Positions 10,096 through 17,637 of a stretch of DNA of 64,000 bases are shown here, piece by piece (positions within the stretch are counted from its first letter, which is position 1; every line of letters begins with the position of its first letter). The DNA is taken from positions 868,001 through 932,000 of the forward strand of contig NZ_WHKF01000002.1 in the NCBI RefSeq assembly GCF_009295825.1, in the 5' to 3' direction. The DNA comes from Marinifilum sp. N1E240 (GTDB lineage: Bacteria > Bacteroidota > Bacteroidia > Bacteroidales > Marinifilaceae). The notes under the pieces are model-generated. The model saw only the letters and a program-made list of their open reading frames with translations, was not told the DNA's origin and did no database searches. The position numbers and the translations under genes are program-made.

Positions 10096-11124
10096 ATGTT
10101 ACACGGACACGGAGACGACGGATACAAATATAAACAAGCTATTGTTGCCAATTTTAGCACAAATGTGTGGTATGGAGGACAATCAGAAGATCTAAAGAAT
10201 CATTTAATTAGCAATTGGGATATAATTGATTCCTACCCCGAGGCATCCGCAGAAAGCTTAATTGATTTAATAGCTAAAGATTTAAAAGTTGATCAAGAGA
10301 TGCTAATAGCTACCAATGGTGCTACAGAAGCCTTCTATTTAATCGCTCAATGTTTTAAAAATCAGTCATCAACCATTGTTATTCCTACCTTTTCGGAATA
10401 CGAGGACGCCTGTAGAGTTAACAATCATGAACTTTTCTTTACGAACTGGAGTGATTTAACTGCTACAACCAAATTCCACACACGATTGGTTTGGATATGC
10501 AATCCTAACAACCCTACCGGATCTATTTTAGATCCCATAAGTTTAGAATCTCTATTGGATTTGAATCAAAATTCAACTTTTATTGTTGATGAAGCCTATA
10601 TCGATTTTACCGATCAGATTACATCTTCTATAGATTTGATCAAAAAACACAAAAATCTAATCATTGTAAAATCTCTCACTAAAAACTTCGCAATTCCCGG
10701 TCTGAGATTGGGATATTTGGTTTCGAACAAGGAAATGGTACAGGATATCGAATTCTACAAGCCTCCATGGACGGTGAATTCACTAGCAATTGAGGCTGGA
10801 AAGTACTTGATTGAACACAAAAGTAAAATATTGCCACCTGTAAACTATTACAAATCAGCATCGAAAAAATTACAGGAAAATTTGAATAAAATTACAGGAT
10901 TGAAAATTCATGCTTCAAAAACTTCCTATTTTTTGATCGAACTAGAAGAAATCAGCTCTTTTGAGCTAAAAAACTACTTAATTTCGGAATTTGGGATACT
11001 TGTGAGAGATGCAAGTAATTTTAGAGGACTAAATTCATCCTATATTCGAATTGCCACATTAAACGAAGAAAAAAACCAACTGCTAATTGACGCATTAAAA
11101 ACATGGAGCAACTTAAATTCATAA
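10096..11124 (+). CDS. cobD: Threonine-phosphate decarboxylase (cobamide synthesis)
   Basis: A 342-residue PLP enzyme of the class I/HisC fold. It opens with the HGHGDD motif common to CobD proteins and has the PLP lysine in SLTKNFAIPGLRLGY (K196), the CNPNNPTG loop and the VDEAYIDF aspartate. It decarboxylates L-threonine-O-3-phosphate to (R)-1-aminopropan-2-ol O-2-phosphate, the linker between corrin ring and nucleotide loop. It is the first gene of the cob operon and overlaps cbiB by 22 bases. A histidinol-phosphate aminotransferase is the alternative by fold, but the context favours CobD. Confidence 0.9.
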   Translation: MLHGHGDDGYKYKQAIVANFSTNVWYGGQSEDLKNHLISNWDIIDSYPEASAESLIDLIAKDLKVDQEMLIATNGATEAFYLIAQCFKNQSSTIVIPTFSEYEDACRVNNHELFFTNWSDLTATTKFHTRLVWICNPNNPTGSILDPISLESLLDLNQNSTFIVDEAYIDFTDQITSSIDLIKKHKNLIIVKSLTKNFAIPGLRLGYLVSNKEMVQDIEFYKPPWTVNSLAIEAGKYLIEHKSKILPPVNYYKSASKKLQENLNKITGLKIHASKTSYFLIELEEISSFELKNYLISEFGILVRDASNFRGLNSSYIRIATLNEEKNQLLIDALKTWSNLNS

Positions 11125-12050
11125 TCCTACCTCTAATCATTGGATATCTTTTAGATCTTATTTTGGGTGACCCAAGGAAATTACCTCACCCTATTGTTGG
11201 ATTTGGGAATACAATTTCATTCTTCACAAAATTATTGAACCTTGGTAAATCACGTTTACTTAAAGGTAGTTTAATGACTTTGTTATTAGCAGGTGGAGTC
11301 TTCTTTCTATTTTATTTCATGGAAGTATTTTTAATGGAAATCAGTGAAATAGCATTAATAAGCTTCACGAGTATTTTTGTTTTTTATGGATTAGCCAACA
11401 AATCTCTATTACAAGAAGGCATTGAGGTTTTTGATCATTTAAACAACAAGGGATTAGAAGCCGGAAGGAAACGCCTATCCTGGATCGTTGGAAGAGATAC
11501 TTCAGAGTTAAGTGAAAAAGAAATTAGACTTGCGGTATTCGAAACACTTTCTGAGAATCTTTCGGACGGTGTAGTTGCACCCTTATTCTATTACGCCATT
11601 GGAGGTGTTCCAGGAATGATGTGCTATAAAATGATCAATACTATGGATTCTATGATTGGTTATAAGAATGAAAAGTACATTTTATTTGGAAGGTTCGCAG
11701 CACGACTTGATGATGTTGCAAACTTTATTCCTTCAAGAATTACAGCACTTTTAATGGCATTGGTAAGCTGTAGTTACAAGTCTTTACGATACATTTTTAA
11801 ATATGGAAAGGCGCATACAAGTCCGAATGCTGGTTATCCCGAAGCTGCTTTAGCTGGAATTCTGGATTGTCAGTTTGGTGGACCTCACAATTATGGTGGG
11901 AAATTAGTACATAAACCCTTTATTGGTGAGAACAATCGTCAAATTGAAGATTCTGAAATTAAGAGAATTATCTATATTAATCATGCTGTATGTTTTCTTT
12001 CAATTGTCATTATTATAGCCTGCTTTTTTCCCTATGCAATACTGCTGTAA
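11103..12050 (+). CDS. cbiB: Adenosylcobinamide-phosphate synthase
   Basis: A 315-residue membrane protein of the CbiB/CobD family, which condenses adenosylcobyric acid with aminopropanol phosphate. Hallmarks include the N-terminal LDLILGDPRKLPHPIVGFG, the central SENLSDGVVAPLFYYAIGG-type segment, MINTMDSMIGYKN, and FGRFAARLDDVANFIPSR. Hydrophobic helices span the N- and C-termini. Its start lies inside the 3' end of cobD, so the two are translationally coupled. Confidence 0.95.
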   Translation: MEQLKFIILPLIIGYLLDLILGDPRKLPHPIVGFGNTISFFTKLLNLGKSRLLKGSLMTLLLAGGVFFLFYFMEVFLMEISEIALISFTSIFVFYGLANKSLLQEGIEVFDHLNNKGLEAGRKRLSWIVGRDTSELSEKEIRLAVFETLSENLSDGVVAPLFYYAIGGVPGMMCYKMINTMDSMIGYKNEKYILFGRFAARLDDVANFIPSRITALLMALVSCSYKSLRYIFKYGKAHTSPNAGYPEAALAGILDCQFGGPHNYGGKLVHKPFIGENNRQIEDSEIKRIIYINHAVCFLSIVIIIACFFPYAILL

Positions 12051-12135: not shown

Positions 12136-12648
12136 ATGATTCACCTAATTACTGGCGGGCAAAGATCAGGCAAAAGTAAGTTTGCCGAGAAGCTTATTCT
12201 TAATAAAACCAACAATCCTATCTATCTGGCAACCTCCAGAATATGGGATGATAATCATAGAAAAAGAATTGAGGCACATCAAGCCAGAAGAGGTGAACAA
12301 TGGACCAATATAGAAGAAGAAAAATACCTGAATAAACATGATTTTACAGGTGAAATTGTTCTATTGGACTGTATTACGCTTTGGCTCAATAACTTCTTTT
12401 TCGATAACGGTGATGATGATGAAAAAACACTTGCTCAGTGCCTTAGTGAATTGGATAAATTATTTGCTCAAGACTGTGATTTGATCATTGTCAGCAACGA
12501 ATTAGGACTTGGAGGTCATCCTGAAAATAAAATGGCTTATCGTTTTAATGATTTACAAGGAACAATAAACCAACACATTGCAAACAAGGCTAATGTGGTA
12601 ACGCTTGTTGTTTCCGGTATTCCTGTCGAAATTAAAAACACACTATAA
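12136..12648 (+). CDS. cobU: Adenosylcobinamide kinase / cobinamide-phosphate guanylyltransferase
   Basis: A 170-residue bifunctional enzyme making adenosylcobinamide-GDP. The P-loop GGQRSGKS is at residues 7-14, followed by the IYLATSRIWDDNHRKRIEAHQARRG-type region holding the guanylylated His, the Walker B-like LLDCITLWLNNFFFD and the SNELGLGGHPENKMAYRFNDLQG segment. The length is normal for CobU. An unusually clear Shine-Dalgarno AAGGAG lies at 12123-12128, rare in this window. Confidence 0.95.
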   Translation: MIHLITGGQRSGKSKFAEKLILNKTNNPIYLATSRIWDDNHRKRIEAHQARRGEQWTNIEEEKYLNKHDFTGEIVLLDCITLWLNNFFFDNGDDDEKTLAQCLSELDKLFAQDCDLIIVSNELGLGGHPENKMAYRFNDLQGTINQHIANKANVVTLVVSGIPVEIKNTL

Positions 12649-12673: not shown

Positions 12674-13825
12674 ATGAAAAATTTATTTAACATCTGCGCA
12701 TTTGTATTTGCGCTGGTTTTAATTAGTACAACATCTTGTAGAAGAGTTGAAACTAAATCCGACACCAAATTAAAAGTTGGAGTATTCGATAAAAATGGTG
12801 ATAGCCCATGGTGTATCGAGGATGCCATTCAAGCTCTAAAAATAGACCCTTCGATTGATTGTGAAGTGATTAGAGCAAGTCAGATAGTATCTGATGAAAT
12901 ATTAGATTTCGATGCCATTGTATTTCCAGGAGGTAGCGGAAGAAGTGAAACCCAAAGTCTAGGAGAAAGCGGAATGGACAGAGTTGTTCAACTTGTAAAA
13001 GATAAGGGAATTGCTGTTGTTGGGATTTGTGCAGGAGCTTATATCATGTCAAATACACCTGATTATCCTTGTTTAAAACTAACTGGATTCGAAGCAATTG
13101 ATATTGAGCACGATCATAGAGGTCATGGATTGGCTAAGTTTTCACTGAGCGAAGAAGGAAAAAAGATTTTCCCGGAGTTGGCTGATCGCGATATTTCTTT
13201 TTGCCAGTATTATGAAGGTCCGGTTTTAATTTCTGCTAATGATGAAGTTGAAAAAACAGACTTAGGAACCATGTTATCTGATGTTCATACTGTTGAAGGT
13301 TCTCCTGCAGATATGACAAACAATCGTCCGTTTATTGTTAGTGCAAAATTAGGAAAAGGAAAAGTTGCTTCTTTCGTAGGTCACCCTGAATGTACTCCAG
13401 GTATGAGATGGATGTTGCCAAGAATTGTTCGTTGGGCTACGAATTCTGAAATGATTTCTTACCCAAAATCTGTTGTTCGTCCAGATTTTTTCAAAAATGA
13501 AATCATCTACACTAAGGATATTCAGGAACTTCAAACGAAATATTATGCAAATTTATCAGGAACAAAAGAAGAGAAATTAGAAGCTATTGATAAGGTAATC
13601 GAATTGGCTTGTTGGTCTTCTAAAAAATGGATTCCTGGAATGTTAAGAGATAAAGATGCGGATGTTAGAGCTAAAGCATCTCGAGCTATTGTTTTATTGG
13701 AAAGAACCGATGCTTTACCTGATTTAGAGATGGCAGTTGTAAATGAGAAAAATGACGATTGCAAAAAGCAATTACAAACCAGCTTGCAGGATTTAAAGCT
13801 GATTCTTGGAAAAAACAGAAAGTAA
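12674..13825 (+). CDS. BPL_N-domain (class I GATase-like) lipoprotein in the cob operon
   Basis: A 383-residue protein. The start at 12674 gives a clean lipoprotein signal with lipobox STTSC; an upstream TTG at 12605 would put the signal inside the protein. Residues about 32-265 form a class I glutamine-amidotransferase-like fold of the BPL_N type, with the nucleophile elbow GICAGA (C119) and a later GHPE (H237, E239), so the Cys-His-Glu triad appears complete. Residues about 300-370 resemble a HEAT-type helical repeat (KDADVRAKASRAIVLLE). It sits between cobU and cobT with 25 bp and 7 bp gaps, so it belongs to the operon. Its reaction is unknown; a link to cobamide handling at the envelope is inferred from context only. 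Confidence 0.82.
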   Translation: MKNLFNICAFVFALVLISTTSCRRVETKSDTKLKVGVFDKNGDSPWCIEDAIQALKIDPSIDCEVIRASQIVSDEILDFDAIVFPGGSGRSETQSLGESGMDRVVQLVKDKGIAVVGICAGAYIMSNTPDYPCLKLTGFEAIDIEHDHRGHGLAKFSLSEEGKKIFPELADRDISFCQYYEGPVLISANDEVEKTDLGTMLSDVHTVEGSPADMTNNRPFIVSAKLGKGKVASFVGHPECTPGMRWMLPRIVRWATNSEMISYPKSVVRPDFFKNEIIYTKDIQELQTKYYANLSGTKEEKLEAIDKVIELACWSSKKWIPGMLRDKDADVRAKASRAIVLLERTDALPDLEMAVVNEKNDDCKKQLQTSLQDLKLILGKNRK

Positions 13826-13832
13826 TAAAGAT

Positions 13833-14882
13833 ATGATGAAGTTTGAGATTAGCTGTTTGTCTGATAAATTAGACAAACAGCTCTGTGAGAAGATTGACAC
13901 GAAGACAAAGCCTATAGGTGCGCTTGGTATGCTTGAAAAAATTGCTTTCCAAATGGGAAGAATTCAAAACACTTTAGAGCCGCAAATTAAAAAACCTAAT
14001 GTTGTGGTATTTGCTGGTGATCATGGTATTGCTGACGATGGCGTTAGTTTTTATCCCAAATCGGTAAGTTTTCAGATGCTTTACAATTACATGCAGGGAG
14101 GAGCAGCCATAAGCGTTTTTTCGCGACAACACAATATAGATTTTAAAGTAGTTGACTGTGGTGTTGATCATGATTTTGAACCAGATCTGAACATCATCAA
14201 TAGAAAAATAGCTTACGGTACCAATAATTACAGATTTGGACCAGCTATGACAAAAGAACAATGTTTGAAAGGAATTGAGCAGGGCGCTCAAATAATGGAA
14301 GACATTCATAAAGAAGACTGTAATTTCATCACCTTTGGAGAGAAAGGTATTGGAAATACATCTTCGGCAGCATTGATACTAAGCCTACTGGGCGATATTC
14401 CTTTGGATGAATGCGTTGGACGTGGCACCGGATTGGATAAAGAAGGTGTTAAATCTAAATATGATCTTTTAAATGAAGGTTTATCGAAATACAATAAAGG
14501 AAATGATCCTATAGATGTATTGACTCACTTTGGTGGATTCGAAATTGTAACTATTGTTGGTGCAATGCTGAAAGCTGCAGAGTTAAAAATGACCTTGCTG
14601 ATTGATGGTTTCATTATTACATCTGCCTTACTTGCAGCATTTAAAATCAATCCTAAAGTAAGAGAATACTGTTTGTTCGCTCACAAATCGAACGAGCAAG
14701 CACACATTAAAATGCTAAATATTCTTGGGGCTGATCCTATTTTGGATATTGGCATGAGATTAGGAGAAGCTACCGGAGCGATGGTTTGCTATCCAATCGT
14801 AAAAAGTGCAGTACAGTTTATGAACGAAATGGCTTCTTTCCAGGAAGCTGGTGTAAGTGAATCAAGCGAAGAAATTTTTTAG
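13833..14882 (+). CDS. cobT: Nicotinate-nucleotide:base phosphoribosyltransferase, first CobT paralogue
   Basis: A 349-residue CobT that activates the lower-ligand base (usually dimethylbenzimidazole) as its ribotide. The start at ATG 13833 lies 7 bp after the BPL_N stop; a longer TTG start at 13806 would overlap it. Conserved: AGDHGIADDGVSFYP, GGAAISVF, FGEKGIGNTSSAA, CVGRGTG, FGGFEIV and the catalytic Glu in RLGEATGA (E312). It departs from the usual family residues at several places (GEKG for GEMG, GEATGA for GEGTGA, SVSFQM for VTxQM), more than the second copy does. Base specificity may therefore differ. Confidence 0.93.
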   Translation: MMKFEISCLSDKLDKQLCEKIDTKTKPIGALGMLEKIAFQMGRIQNTLEPQIKKPNVVVFAGDHGIADDGVSFYPKSVSFQMLYNYMQGGAAISVFSRQHNIDFKVVDCGVDHDFEPDLNIINRKIAYGTNNYRFGPAMTKEQCLKGIEQGAQIMEDIHKEDCNFITFGEKGIGNTSSAALILSLLGDIPLDECVGRGTGLDKEGVKSKYDLLNEGLSKYNKGNDPIDVLTHFGGFEIVTIVGAMLKAAELKMTLLIDGFIITSALLAAFKINPKVREYCLFAHKSNEQAHIKMLNILGADPILDIGMRLGEATGAMVCYPIVKSAVQFMNEMASFQEAGVSESSEEIF

Positions 14883-14896
14883 ATATTAAATAAATA

Positions 14897-15008
14897 CACC
14901 CCTCTCTCTATCGAGATCTCCCCTAAAAAGGGAGAATGCATAAAAATAGAGTAAGATTTAAATTTACAGCTTCCCCTTTTAGGGAAAGTGCCGACAGGCG
15001 AAAGGGTG
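14897..15008. repeat. Palindromic intergenic element, copy 1
   Basis: A 112-bp element between the two cobT genes. Its outer ends are CACCC and GGGTG; the two ~39-bp arms are imperfect inverted copies, and each arm carries its own small hairpin of the CCCTAAAA(G)GGG kind. The same arm pattern returns at 61344-61438, so it is a dispersed repeat. No coding capacity. Confidence 0.8.
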
Positions 15009-15041
15009 AATTATACAATGTTTTAACAACTTTTAAAGCCT

Positions 15042-16085
15042 ATGAATTTCAATATAGATAAGCCAAACGAAACTCTTATTGAGCAACTACAACATAAAAT
15101 AGATTTTAAAACCAAACCTATTGGATCTCTAGGGGTATTGGAGCAATTAGCTGTCAAAATTGGTAGTATTCAGGAAACTTTATCTCCTGAATTAAAGAAA
15201 CCTGTGATCATGGTTTTTGCTGCCGATCATGGAATCGCATTGGATGGTGTGAGTCCTTATCCACAGGAAGTAACCTGGCAAATGGTTGCCAACTTTATGG
15301 CTGGAGGCGCTGCGATAAATGTATTTGGTCGTCAAAACAATATCGATATTAAAATTGTGGATGCCGGCGTAAATTACGATTTCGATAAAAACTCTGGTGT
15401 TATCGATGCTAAAGTTGCTTATGGAACAAAGAGTTACTTGAATAATGCTGCCATGAGTAACGAACAATTCGAATTGGCACTTAAAAGAGGAGCTGACTTA
15501 GCCGAAAAAATGCATAACGAAGGAAGCAACGTTATTGGCTTTGGTGAAATGGGAATTGCCAATACTTCTTCAGCAGCAGTACTTTTGCATTTACTTACCA
15601 AGGTTGATTTAAAAGAATGCGTTGGACGTGGAACTGGCTGGGATGATGAAGGCTTGAAGCGAAAATATGAAATTCTAAAATCTGCTGTTGAAAACTACAA
15701 TGGTGATAAATCGATAGAAAGTATTTTCTCTCACTTCGGAGGTTTTGAGATTGTAATGATTGCAGGAGCTATGCTTAAGGCTGCTGAATTAAAAATGATT
15801 ATCATGGTAGATGGTTTCATTATTACTTCTGCTTTGTTAGCAGCTTCTAAAATGAATCCTAATGTGCTAGAATACTGTATCTTTACTCATAAATCGAACG
15901 AGAACGGTCACAAGCACATGCTAGAGCATTTAAATGCAAATGCAATACTTGATTTAGGAATGCGCTTAGGCGAAGGTACAGGAGCTGCTGTGGCTTATCC
16001 AATTATCGAATCAGCTGTTAACTTTTTAAACCAAATGGCTAGTTTCGAAGATGCTGGAGTTAGTAACAGCGATAAAATCAATTAA
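15042..16085 (+). CDS. cobT: Nicotinate-nucleotide:base phosphoribosyltransferase, second CobT paralogue
   Basis: A 347-residue CobT, same reaction family as the preceding copy. It matches the family consensus more closely: AADHGIALDGVSPYP, VTWQMVANFMAGGAAINVF, FGEMGIANTSSAA, CVGRGTGWDDEG and the catalytic Glu in RLGEGTGAAVAYP (E311). It is separated from the first copy by 159 bp holding a palindromic repeat. The two copies have diverged along their whole length, so this is not a recent duplication. In some Firmicutes two CobT-like subunits (ArsA/ArsB) form a heterodimer that activates phenolic bases; whether that applies here is untested. Confidence 0.95.
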   Translation: MNFNIDKPNETLIEQLQHKIDFKTKPIGSLGVLEQLAVKIGSIQETLSPELKKPVIMVFAADHGIALDGVSPYPQEVTWQMVANFMAGGAAINVFGRQNNIDIKIVDAGVNYDFDKNSGVIDAKVAYGTKSYLNNAAMSNEQFELALKRGADLAEKMHNEGSNVIGFGEMGIANTSSAAVLLHLLTKVDLKECVGRGTGWDDEGLKRKYEILKSAVENYNGDKSIESIFSHFGGFEIVMIAGAMLKAAELKMIIMVDGFIITSALLAASKMNPNVLEYCIFTHKSNENGHKHMLEHLNANAILDLGMRLGEGTGAAVAYPIIESAVNFLNQMASFEDAGVSNSDKIN

Positions 16086-16154: not shown

Positions 16155-16907
16155 ATGAAAGAACTCAACATTTTCTTTACAGGATTGTCCTTTTTTACCA
16201 GAATTCCTTTTCCAAAAGGAGCTGAGTTTAAAAAGGAGTATCAGCATGAAGCACTTAAATATTTTCCAATTGCAGGATTGATTATTGGAGGTTTTGCGGC
16301 TTTGGTATTCTACTTGTCAAACTTGGTTCTTCCTTTTAATCTGTCAGTTGTTTTAAGTTTAGGATTAACAGTCTTATTTACTGGTGGATTGCACGAAGAT
16401 GGTTTTATGGATGTTTGTGATGGATTTGGAGGAGGATGGACCAAAGAGCGCATTCTGGCAATCATGAAAGACTCTTTGATTGGAGCTTTTGGAGTTACAG
16501 GCATTGCCTTTTTAATTCTAACTAAATATTTTTGCCAATACAATGTATCTGCTGCAAATTTACCATGGATAATAATTGCGGCACATTCTACCACAAGAAT
16601 GGTAGCTGCAACTTTGGTGAATACACACCAATATGCAAGAGTAGACAATTCGAAAGCAAAGGATTACAGTCAGAAATTAAGCTCAGGTAATTTCATTTTC
16701 ATGTTGATTACAGGAGTTTTACCTTTACTTCTTCTGGGAAGCATTAAGTTTTTTCTGATTTTGATTCCTGTATATCTTTGCAAGTTCTTACTGGGAAGAT
16801 ATTACAACAAATGGATTGGCGGCTTTACCGGAGATTGCATAGGGGCAACCCAACAAATTTGTGAAGTGGTTTTCTATCTATCGTATTTAATCCTAATAAA
16901 TTGGTAA
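16155..16907 (+). CDS. cobS: Adenosylcobinamide-GDP ribazoletransferase
   Basis: A 250-residue membrane enzyme that joins adenosylcobinamide-GDP and alpha-ribazole phosphate, completing the cobamide. The start at ATG 16155 gives MKELNIFFTGLSFFTRIPFP, the usual CobS N-terminus; the frame is open upstream to 16095 but that extension is not family-like. Conserved: GGLHEDGFMDVCDGFGGG with the Asp-rich active site (about residues 79-95) and GGFTGDCIGATQQICEV near the C-terminus. About six membrane helices. Confidence 0.95.
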   Translation: MKELNIFFTGLSFFTRIPFPKGAEFKKEYQHEALKYFPIAGLIIGGFAALVFYLSNLVLPFNLSVVLSLGLTVLFTGGLHEDGFMDVCDGFGGGWTKERILAIMKDSLIGAFGVTGIAFLILTKYFCQYNVSAANLPWIIIAAHSTTRMVAATLVNTHQYARVDNSKAKDYSQKLSSGNFIFMLITGVLPLLLLGSIKFFLILIPVYLCKFLLGRYYNKWIGGFTGDCIGATQQICEVVFYLSYLILINW

Positions 16908-17106: not shown

Positions 17107-17637
17107 ATGGAAATATATTTAATCCGTCACACGAAAGTAGCAGTAGAACAAGGAGTTTGCTACGGACAAAAAGATGTTGACTTAGCAGAAAGCTATCCTG
17201 TGGAGTTGGAAGCTTTAAAGGAAAAGCTAAAGGGAATCGAATTCGATCAAATTTTTACAAGCCCTTTAAACCGAGCAAAGAAATTGGCTACTGATATTTT
17301 TGGAGATAAGGTTCAGGAAGAAAAGCGATTAATGGAATTGAACTTTGGCGATTGGGAAGGTAAAGTTTGGGATGAAATTAAAGATCCTTTATTTCCTGCC
17401 TGGATGGAAGATTTCGTAAACAAAAAATGTTCGAACGGAGAATCGTTTGTAATGCTTCGCGATCGTGTTTTGGAATTCTGGAACGAGGTGAAAGCCAAAG
17501 ATTGCGAACGAATTGCTATTTTCTCACATGGTGGTGTAATGCGTACCATTAACGCAATTGATAAAAACATCAAGCTGGAAGATTCATTCAACGAACCAAC
17601 ACCAGAATTTGGTGAAGTTGTTATCATTAAGGCATAA
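17107..17637 (+). CDS. cobC: Alpha-ribazole phosphatase (histidine phosphatase superfamily)
   Basis: A 176-residue phosphatase that removes the 5' phosphate from alpha-ribazole phosphate or adenosylcobalamin phosphate. Active-site features: IRHTKV with the phospho-accepting His at about residue 7, the FTSPLNRAKKLA segment, the acid residue in LMELNFGDWEGK and the second His in FSHGGVMR. The fold alone would also allow another phosphoglycerate mutase-like activity, but the place at the end of the cob operon points to CobC. A terminator follows. Confidence 0.9.
   Translation: MEIYLIRHTKVAVEQGVCYGQKDVDLAESYPVELEALKEKLKGIEFDQIFTSPLNRAKKLATDIFGDKVQEEKRLMELNFGDWEGKVWDEIKDPLFPAWMEDFVNKKCSNGESFVMLRDRVLEFWNEVKAKDCERIAIFSHGGVMRTINAIDKNIKLEDSFNEPTPEFGEVVIIKA

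Follow-up and report, generated by a model that had tools for sequence, protein, structure and literature searches.

Two diverged homologues of CobT are encoded in tandem in one late-cobamide operon of the window (the whole stretch of 64,000 nucleotides analysed here), and the pair is old and conserved within one group of Bacteroidota that includes Marinifilum, Labilibaculum and Ancylomarina. The products of the two genes, cobT1 and cobT2, are predicted from their sequences to be, most likely, two working base-activating phosphoribosyltransferases. CobT1 has a lysine at a putative base-pocket position where it was seen in no other relative examined, so that two forms of the vitamin B12-type cofactor may be produced in this group. 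We lean towards the reading that the two CobTs descend from one ancestral duplication and have split their substrates, each with its own preference for the lower base.

Table 1. Features of the operon (positions in the window) and related genes elsewhere in the window's genome (contig coordinates).
Feature	Position	Strand	Evidence
cobD-type aminotransferase (threonine-phosphate decarboxylase-like)	10096..11124	+	TIGR01140 262 bits, below cut-off 290.55; best NCBIfam match
cbiB, adenosylcobinamide-phosphate synthase	11103..12050	+	PF03186 341.5 bits; TIGR00380 above cut-off
cobU, adenosylcobinamide kinase/guanylyltransferase	12136..12648	+	PF02283 179.1 bits; NF004469 162.9 bits, above 161
Lipoprotein-like gene, BPL_N amidotransferase-like domain	12674..13825	+	PF09825 36.8 bits, above 24.2 (computed on longer frame starting at 12605); signal and Cys spotted by eye
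cobT1, diverged CobT (K171, F73, S79, F80)	13833..14882	+	Profiles, alignment, AlphaFold2 model
cobT1 codons for residues 73-86, base-pocket loop	14049..14090	+	Holds S. enterica S80/Q88 equivalents Y74, M82
cobT1 Lys171 codon	14343..14345	+	Equivalent of S. enterica Leu175
cobT2, near-canonical CobT (Y73, M81, M170)	15042..16085	+	Profiles, alignment
cobS, adenosylcobinamide-GDP ribazoletransferase	16155..16907	+	PF02654 184.9 bits; TIGR00317 above cut-off; start set at ATG 16155
cobC, alpha-ribazole phosphatase	17107..17637	+	TIGR03162 167 bits, above 162.9
CbiZ of window's genome	G000:C32:497205-497804
Reductive dehalogenase match, window's genome	G000:C61:69258-70148		TIGR02486 208.5 bits, cut-off 160.35
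Reductive dehalogenase match, window's genome	G000:C32:459817-460440		TIGR02486 163.4 bits with in-frame neighbours, cut-off 160.35

The operon lies on the plus strand and runs in the order cobD-type aminotransferase, cbiB, cobU, lipoprotein-like gene, cobT1, cobT2, cobS and cobC (Table 1). A sequence-only reading of this DNA had proposed two diverged CobT paralogues within one cobamide operon, and so they are: both reading frames are intact and full-length, and their products share 57% identity over 343 residues. CobT1 and CobT2 score 430.5 and 443.4 bits with TIGR03160 (cut-off 319.3) and 413.8 and 433.4 bits with PF02277 (cut-off 22.6), and the latter profile matches no other protein genome-wide. 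The catalytic glutamate expected in both copies is in place, as E312 of CobT1 and E311 of CobT2 align with Salmonella Glu317. The counterparts of Salmonella Glu174, which touches the ribose according to PMC9561151, are E170 and E169, and both glutamates are present in 23/23 rows of each group. The AlphaFold2 model of the CobT1 monomer (mean pLDDT 93.1) superimposes on Salmonella CobT (1l4e) with a Z of 48.0 and an rmsd of 1.5 over 341 aligned residues. The fit to ArsA is slightly below this (Z 43.6); for such a model, the order of the two Z values is by itself no proof of subfamily.

The lipoprotein-like gene, which the sequence-only reading does not mention, stands between cobU and cobT1 and ends 7 bp before the latter. 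Its homologues lie upstream in 17 of the 22 tandem loci compared, adjacent to cobT1 in some only, and are absent from L039, L045, L047, L049 and L043 (the contig of L043 stops 3.5 kb upstream). The gap between cobT1 and cobT2 measures 159 bp (14883-15041). It contains an imperfect palindromic stretch, recognized by eye, a 21-base piece of which is single-copy in the window. Zero Rfam matches were obtained in the window at gathering thresholds, and thus no cobalamin riboswitch was seen. Promoter-like sites in the window occur at chance level (27 vs 28.1 expected, sd 5.7) and terminator-like sites above it (9 vs 3.8 expected, sd 1.9). This gap bears on an explanation by redundancy, in which the two enzymes would have a similar base range and would both be kept for expression level or for condition-dependent expression. 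Two seemingly redundant CobTs are described in PMC4657239 for Propionibacterium acnes and Moorella thermoacetica, and 159 bp leaves space for separate control. However, none of the terminator-like sites falls in the gap, and redundancy alone does not predict the residues K171, S79, Y86 and C319, which all 23 CobT1 rows share at positions where other CobTs hardly vary. We consider redundancy rather improbable.

A search of related genomes, suggested with the sequence-only reading, found the pair across genera: 51 of 96 genomes have CobT and 22, the window's own counted, have both genes. All 22 belong to the window's own family and represent six genera; named records with identical proteins assign several of these genomes to Marinifilum, Labilibaculum and Ancylomarina. 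The pair is intact on one contig in 20 of these genomes. In G045, the only one of the 22 in which cobT1 and cobT2 are apart, both genes lie at contig ends, and in G036 the genes are frameshifted. The G036 locus (L081, G036:C47), from a MAG, has both cobT genes, cobD and maeB in pieces, for which sequencing error seems likely; its fragments were left out of the trees and row counts, and the genome is counted as tandem. The order cobT1-cobT2-cobS-cobC is kept in 22/22 loci that reach these genes, with a cobS-cobC distance of 1.6 kb in L036. In 19 tandem loci (L032-L045, L047-L051) the two cobT genes share a strand and are 23-209 bp apart, with gene starts picked mechanically. G038 belongs to a tandem genus and is 99% complete; it matches CbiZ and CbiH and shows no CobT match, which may be an assembly gap or a loss.

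The pair had also been supposed to be unusual for the phylum, and this was borne out in 392 phylum-wide genomes. CobT is found in 109 of them and two full-length copies in the window's genome only; in G266 and G355 the second match is a fragment. In a draw of 393 genomes of the order, in which the window's genome is the sole tandem genome, 63 match CobT1 at E 1e-60, and all matches outside the window's own pair have at most 53% identity to CobT1. Four genomes of this draw besides the window's (G084, G575, G576 and G816) likewise have two CobT matches each. Unlike the window pair, none of these are adjacent: they lie on separate contigs or, in G576, about 42 kb apart, and their identity to CobT1 never exceeds 53%. 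Genus g66 (G301:C1:3505620-3506609 and further genomes) has CobT matches inside open frames that, at about 560 aa, exceed the length of CobT alone and are possible fusions. We found no description of paired CobTs in Marinifilum, Labilibaculum or Ancylomarina in the literature; the supplementary tandem-cobT table of PMC6461909 may list them.

Two trees bear on the history of the pair. In the tree of 169 rows, CobT1 and CobT2 (23 rows each) form clades with SH-aLRT supports of 100 and 99 and are sisters at 90, and the Ancylomarina-like rows are split from the remainder in both clades. A tree of 94 rows, thinned by hand from the 169 (9 rows for each copy; L138 and L187 dropped as odd or long) and computed under a mixture model, gave supports of 100/100 for CobT1, 100/98 for CobT2 and 86/97 for the sister branch. 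The inner order of this tree differs between the two clades at weak forks (83/71, 88/66). On these alignments CobT1 and CobT2 are probably sisters, a placement that favours one duplication. A topology that leaves CobT1 outside and groups CobT2 and the single-copy CobTs of Bacteroidales was not rejected (p-AU 0.333) and thus leaves room for a foreign origin of CobT1. The stem of CobT1 is longer than that of CobT2 in both trees (0.37 vs 0.19 with 169 rows, 0.47 vs 0.17 with 94). The simplest history would be a single duplication before the genera split, with CobT1 evolving faster initially. A recent duplication is out, since identity between CobT1 and CobT2 is 53.6-62.2% over all 23+23 row pairs; mean identity within the groups is 79.5% for CobT1 and 80.3% for CobT2. 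The outcome of recent copies with identical pocket residues, which the sequence-only reading had held against itself, did not materialize: the copies are lineage-specific, yet older than several genera, and their pockets differ. Both copies are under strong purifying selection, with dN/dS of 0.025-0.078 in 11 genome pairs, values that are rough because many dS values exceed 1; two CobT1 values were unmeasurable because synonymous sites were saturated.

The two groups are fixed for different residues at 26 sites, a fixed site having the same residue in at least 22 of the 23 rows of each group. The outgroup rule assigns 8 of these as CobT1-derived and 3 as CobT2-derived. Residues 73-86 hold 8 of the 26 (p 8.5e-7, for a segment chosen post hoc and about 340 positions assumed). 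Position 171 is lysine in 23/23 CobT1 rows and Met or Leu in 23/23 CobT2 rows, and among 119 other CobTs it is M in 113 and L in 6. Three further residues are fixed in all 23 CobT1 rows: S79 (T in 119/119 other CobTs), Y86 (F in 116/119) and C319 (A in 114/119). Position 80 in CobT1 is Y in 22/23 rows and F in one, that of the window. The first copy had been said to depart from the family consensus at GEKG, GEATGA and SVSFQM. GEKG, which contains K171, and SVS[F/Y] do mark CobT1; GEATGA is no mark of the subfamily, with A in 6 and G in 5 of 11 CobT1 rows. The Q of SVSFQM is replaced by E in 1/11 (L039). A scan of six-frame translations of all loci compared for the motif of the E174 loop returned 23 distinct stretches with K, 113 with M and 6 with L, and those with K came from the tandem loci and the window only. 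A degenerate DNA pattern for the K motif, blind to variants with Leu after Gly, matched the window alone in 395 phylum genomes, its own included.

The equivalents of Salmonella S80, Q88 and L175 are Y74, M82 and K171 in CobT1 and Y73, M81 and M170 in CobT2. The copies thus differ at a pocket position, as the sequence-only reading had anticipated, with K171 in CobT1 facing Met or Leu in CobT2. The Tyr/Met/Met set is common to CobT2, ArsA and Thermus CobT, and CobT1 deviates from it at K171 only. The same set was engineered in a Salmonella mutant: over the stretch compared, PDB 4kqj, whose title describes a p-cresol and NaMN complex, differs from wild-type Salmonella CobT by exactly S80Y, Q88M and L175M. 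By titles and by sequences against wild type, 4kqf and 4kqg are E174A, and 4kqh and 4kqi are E317A. K171 is placed at the predicted base pocket by its equivalence to Salmonella Leu175. According to PMC4657239, adenine is contacted by S80 and Q88; it is held when the residues at these sites are polar, and DMB is favoured when they are hydrophobic. Since both copies have Tyr and Met at these sites, the published rule predicts a bias against adenine for both, and a purine role for CobT1 would require K171 to replace the lost contacts. A polar pocket residue would have been regained in CobT1 only, with K171 as the candidate site.

In the reading by substrate split, one duplication in the ancestor of Marinifilum, Labilibaculum and Ancylomarina would have been followed by a division of substrates. 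CobT2 retains the all-hydrophobic Tyr/Met/Met set, expected to suit benzimidazole-type bases. CobT1 has its catalytic glutamates, a rebuilt base-pocket loop and a lysine at the Leu175 position, and it may activate a base with hydrogen-bond acceptors near this lysine, for example a purine or a hydroxylated base. That the substrates differ, and which they would be, we infer beside the observed conservation, divergence, selection and residue positions. The pair could be seen in two other ways. CobT1 might assemble with CobT2 into a heterodimer, either obligate or preferred, by convergence with ArsAB; the base pocket would lie at the interface, and each chain would tune the site of the other. The base pocket of the Salmonella enzyme is built from both chains of the dimer (PMC9561151), and the genes are adjacent on the same strand at the short distances given above. 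However, the equivalents of both E174 and E317 are present in either chain, so neither resembles a mere partner. Many CobTs are also thought to act as homodimers. A heterodimer appears unlikely to us. Alternatively, CobT1 might have left the activation of cobamide bases, to alpha-phosphoribosylate another substrate or take another donor; its longer stem is in line with this, as is an unusual lysine that adjoins the ribose-contacting glutamate (Salmonella E174 in PMC9561151). Yet the gene order around the pair is constant, both glutamates are kept, and the model fits CobT almost end to end. We give such a role little credence.

The genomes with the pair share a wider context. CbiZ, which removes the nucleotide loop and so allows a different lower ligand to be attached (PMC6461909), is found in 21/22 tandem genomes and is missing from G055, which is 63% complete. 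It occurs in 0/29 other genomes with CobT and in 1/45 without it (G038). Reductive dehalogenases above the TIGR02486 cut-off are found in 11/22 tandem genomes, the window's included, and in 1/29 other CobT genomes; as the reason for the pair they are too patchy. CbiZ, the dehalogenases and the pair mark one clade and are a lead, rather than independent evidence, as they may reflect shared descent. Marinifilum and Ancylomarina are named as candidate organohalide respirers in PMC12908670. Under the reading by substrate split, CbiZ would strip the nucleotide loop from salvaged corrinoids, and the cell would rebuild them with a choice of two lower ligands. A bolder extension, which we hold as tentative and rather doubtful, is that CobT1 founds a lysine-pocket class of CobT dedicated to a base that is polar or a purine; together with CobT2 and CbiZ it would yield two cobamides from salvaged corrinoids, one for each set of cobamide enzymes and possibly one for the reductive dehalogenases. 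Cobalamin synthesis is reported as complete in some and incomplete in other Marinifilaceae MAGs in PMC9765461. CbiH exceeds its cut-off in 41/96 genomes, all 22 tandem ones included, and therefore de novo corrin synthesis is not peculiar to the tandem genomes. No BluB match in the window's genome exceeds the cut-off (best 59.1 bits vs 150), and there is one ThiC-type match only, so that by ThiC matches there is no sign of a bza set. From these two results, the bases are probably purines or scavenged.

A microbe's choice of lower ligand determines the cobamide it produces and the enzymes it can run, and sequence is still a poor guide to this choice. For learning the specificity rule, two natural enzymes that differ at a pocket residue already altered in Salmonella CobT offer a ready comparison. 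The association of the pair with CbiZ and reductive dehalogenases opens lower-ligand supply in marine, possibly dehalogenating Bacteroidota to direct tests.

Among known systems, ArsA and ArsB of Sporomusa and Veillonella are likewise two tandem cobT homologues, and ArsA shares with CobT2 the Tyr/Met/Met set at the S80, Q88 and L175 sites. They come from a different phylum, and the residue-by-residue comparison with the window pair covers ArsA. In PMC6461909, arsAB is taken to mean cobT homologues in tandem and is reported from 27 species, almost entirely Negativicutes; the window pair falls under this operational rule. Equating tandem cobT with arsAB (PMC6461909) would mislabel this Bacteroidota group as makers of phenolyl cobamides, unless it were proven to be so. 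Kinship with ArsA, to which the sequence-only reading had pointed, was not recovered: both copies sit among Bacteroidota-type CobTs, and in the 94-row tree a 100/100 branch parts them, with 66 other rows, from a long-branched ArsA (ArsB not included). Constraining CobT1 with ArsA gave a marginal p-AU of 0.0305. The proposed phylogeny with CobT and ArsA thus upheld two distinct old clades and placed ArsA outside them, and ArsAB by descent is out. By pairwise score, ArsA ranks below Thermus CobT and above Salmonella and Yersinia CobT, with ArsB last of ten; as ArsA falls among the CobTs in this ranking, score alone is insufficient to settle its kinship. Propionibacterium acnes and Moorella thermoacetica also have two CobT-type enzymes per cell, by the description in PMC4657239. 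The CobTs of Salmonella and Thermus share with the window pair the family, the fold (by the CobT1 model), the catalytic glutamates and an operon with cobU, cobS and cobC. Unlike them, the window has tandem copies, one of which, CobT1, carries Lys at the Leu/Met175 position together with a rebuilt loop (residues 73-86). We class the pair as a variant of CobT that is specific to one clade and diverged at the pocket.
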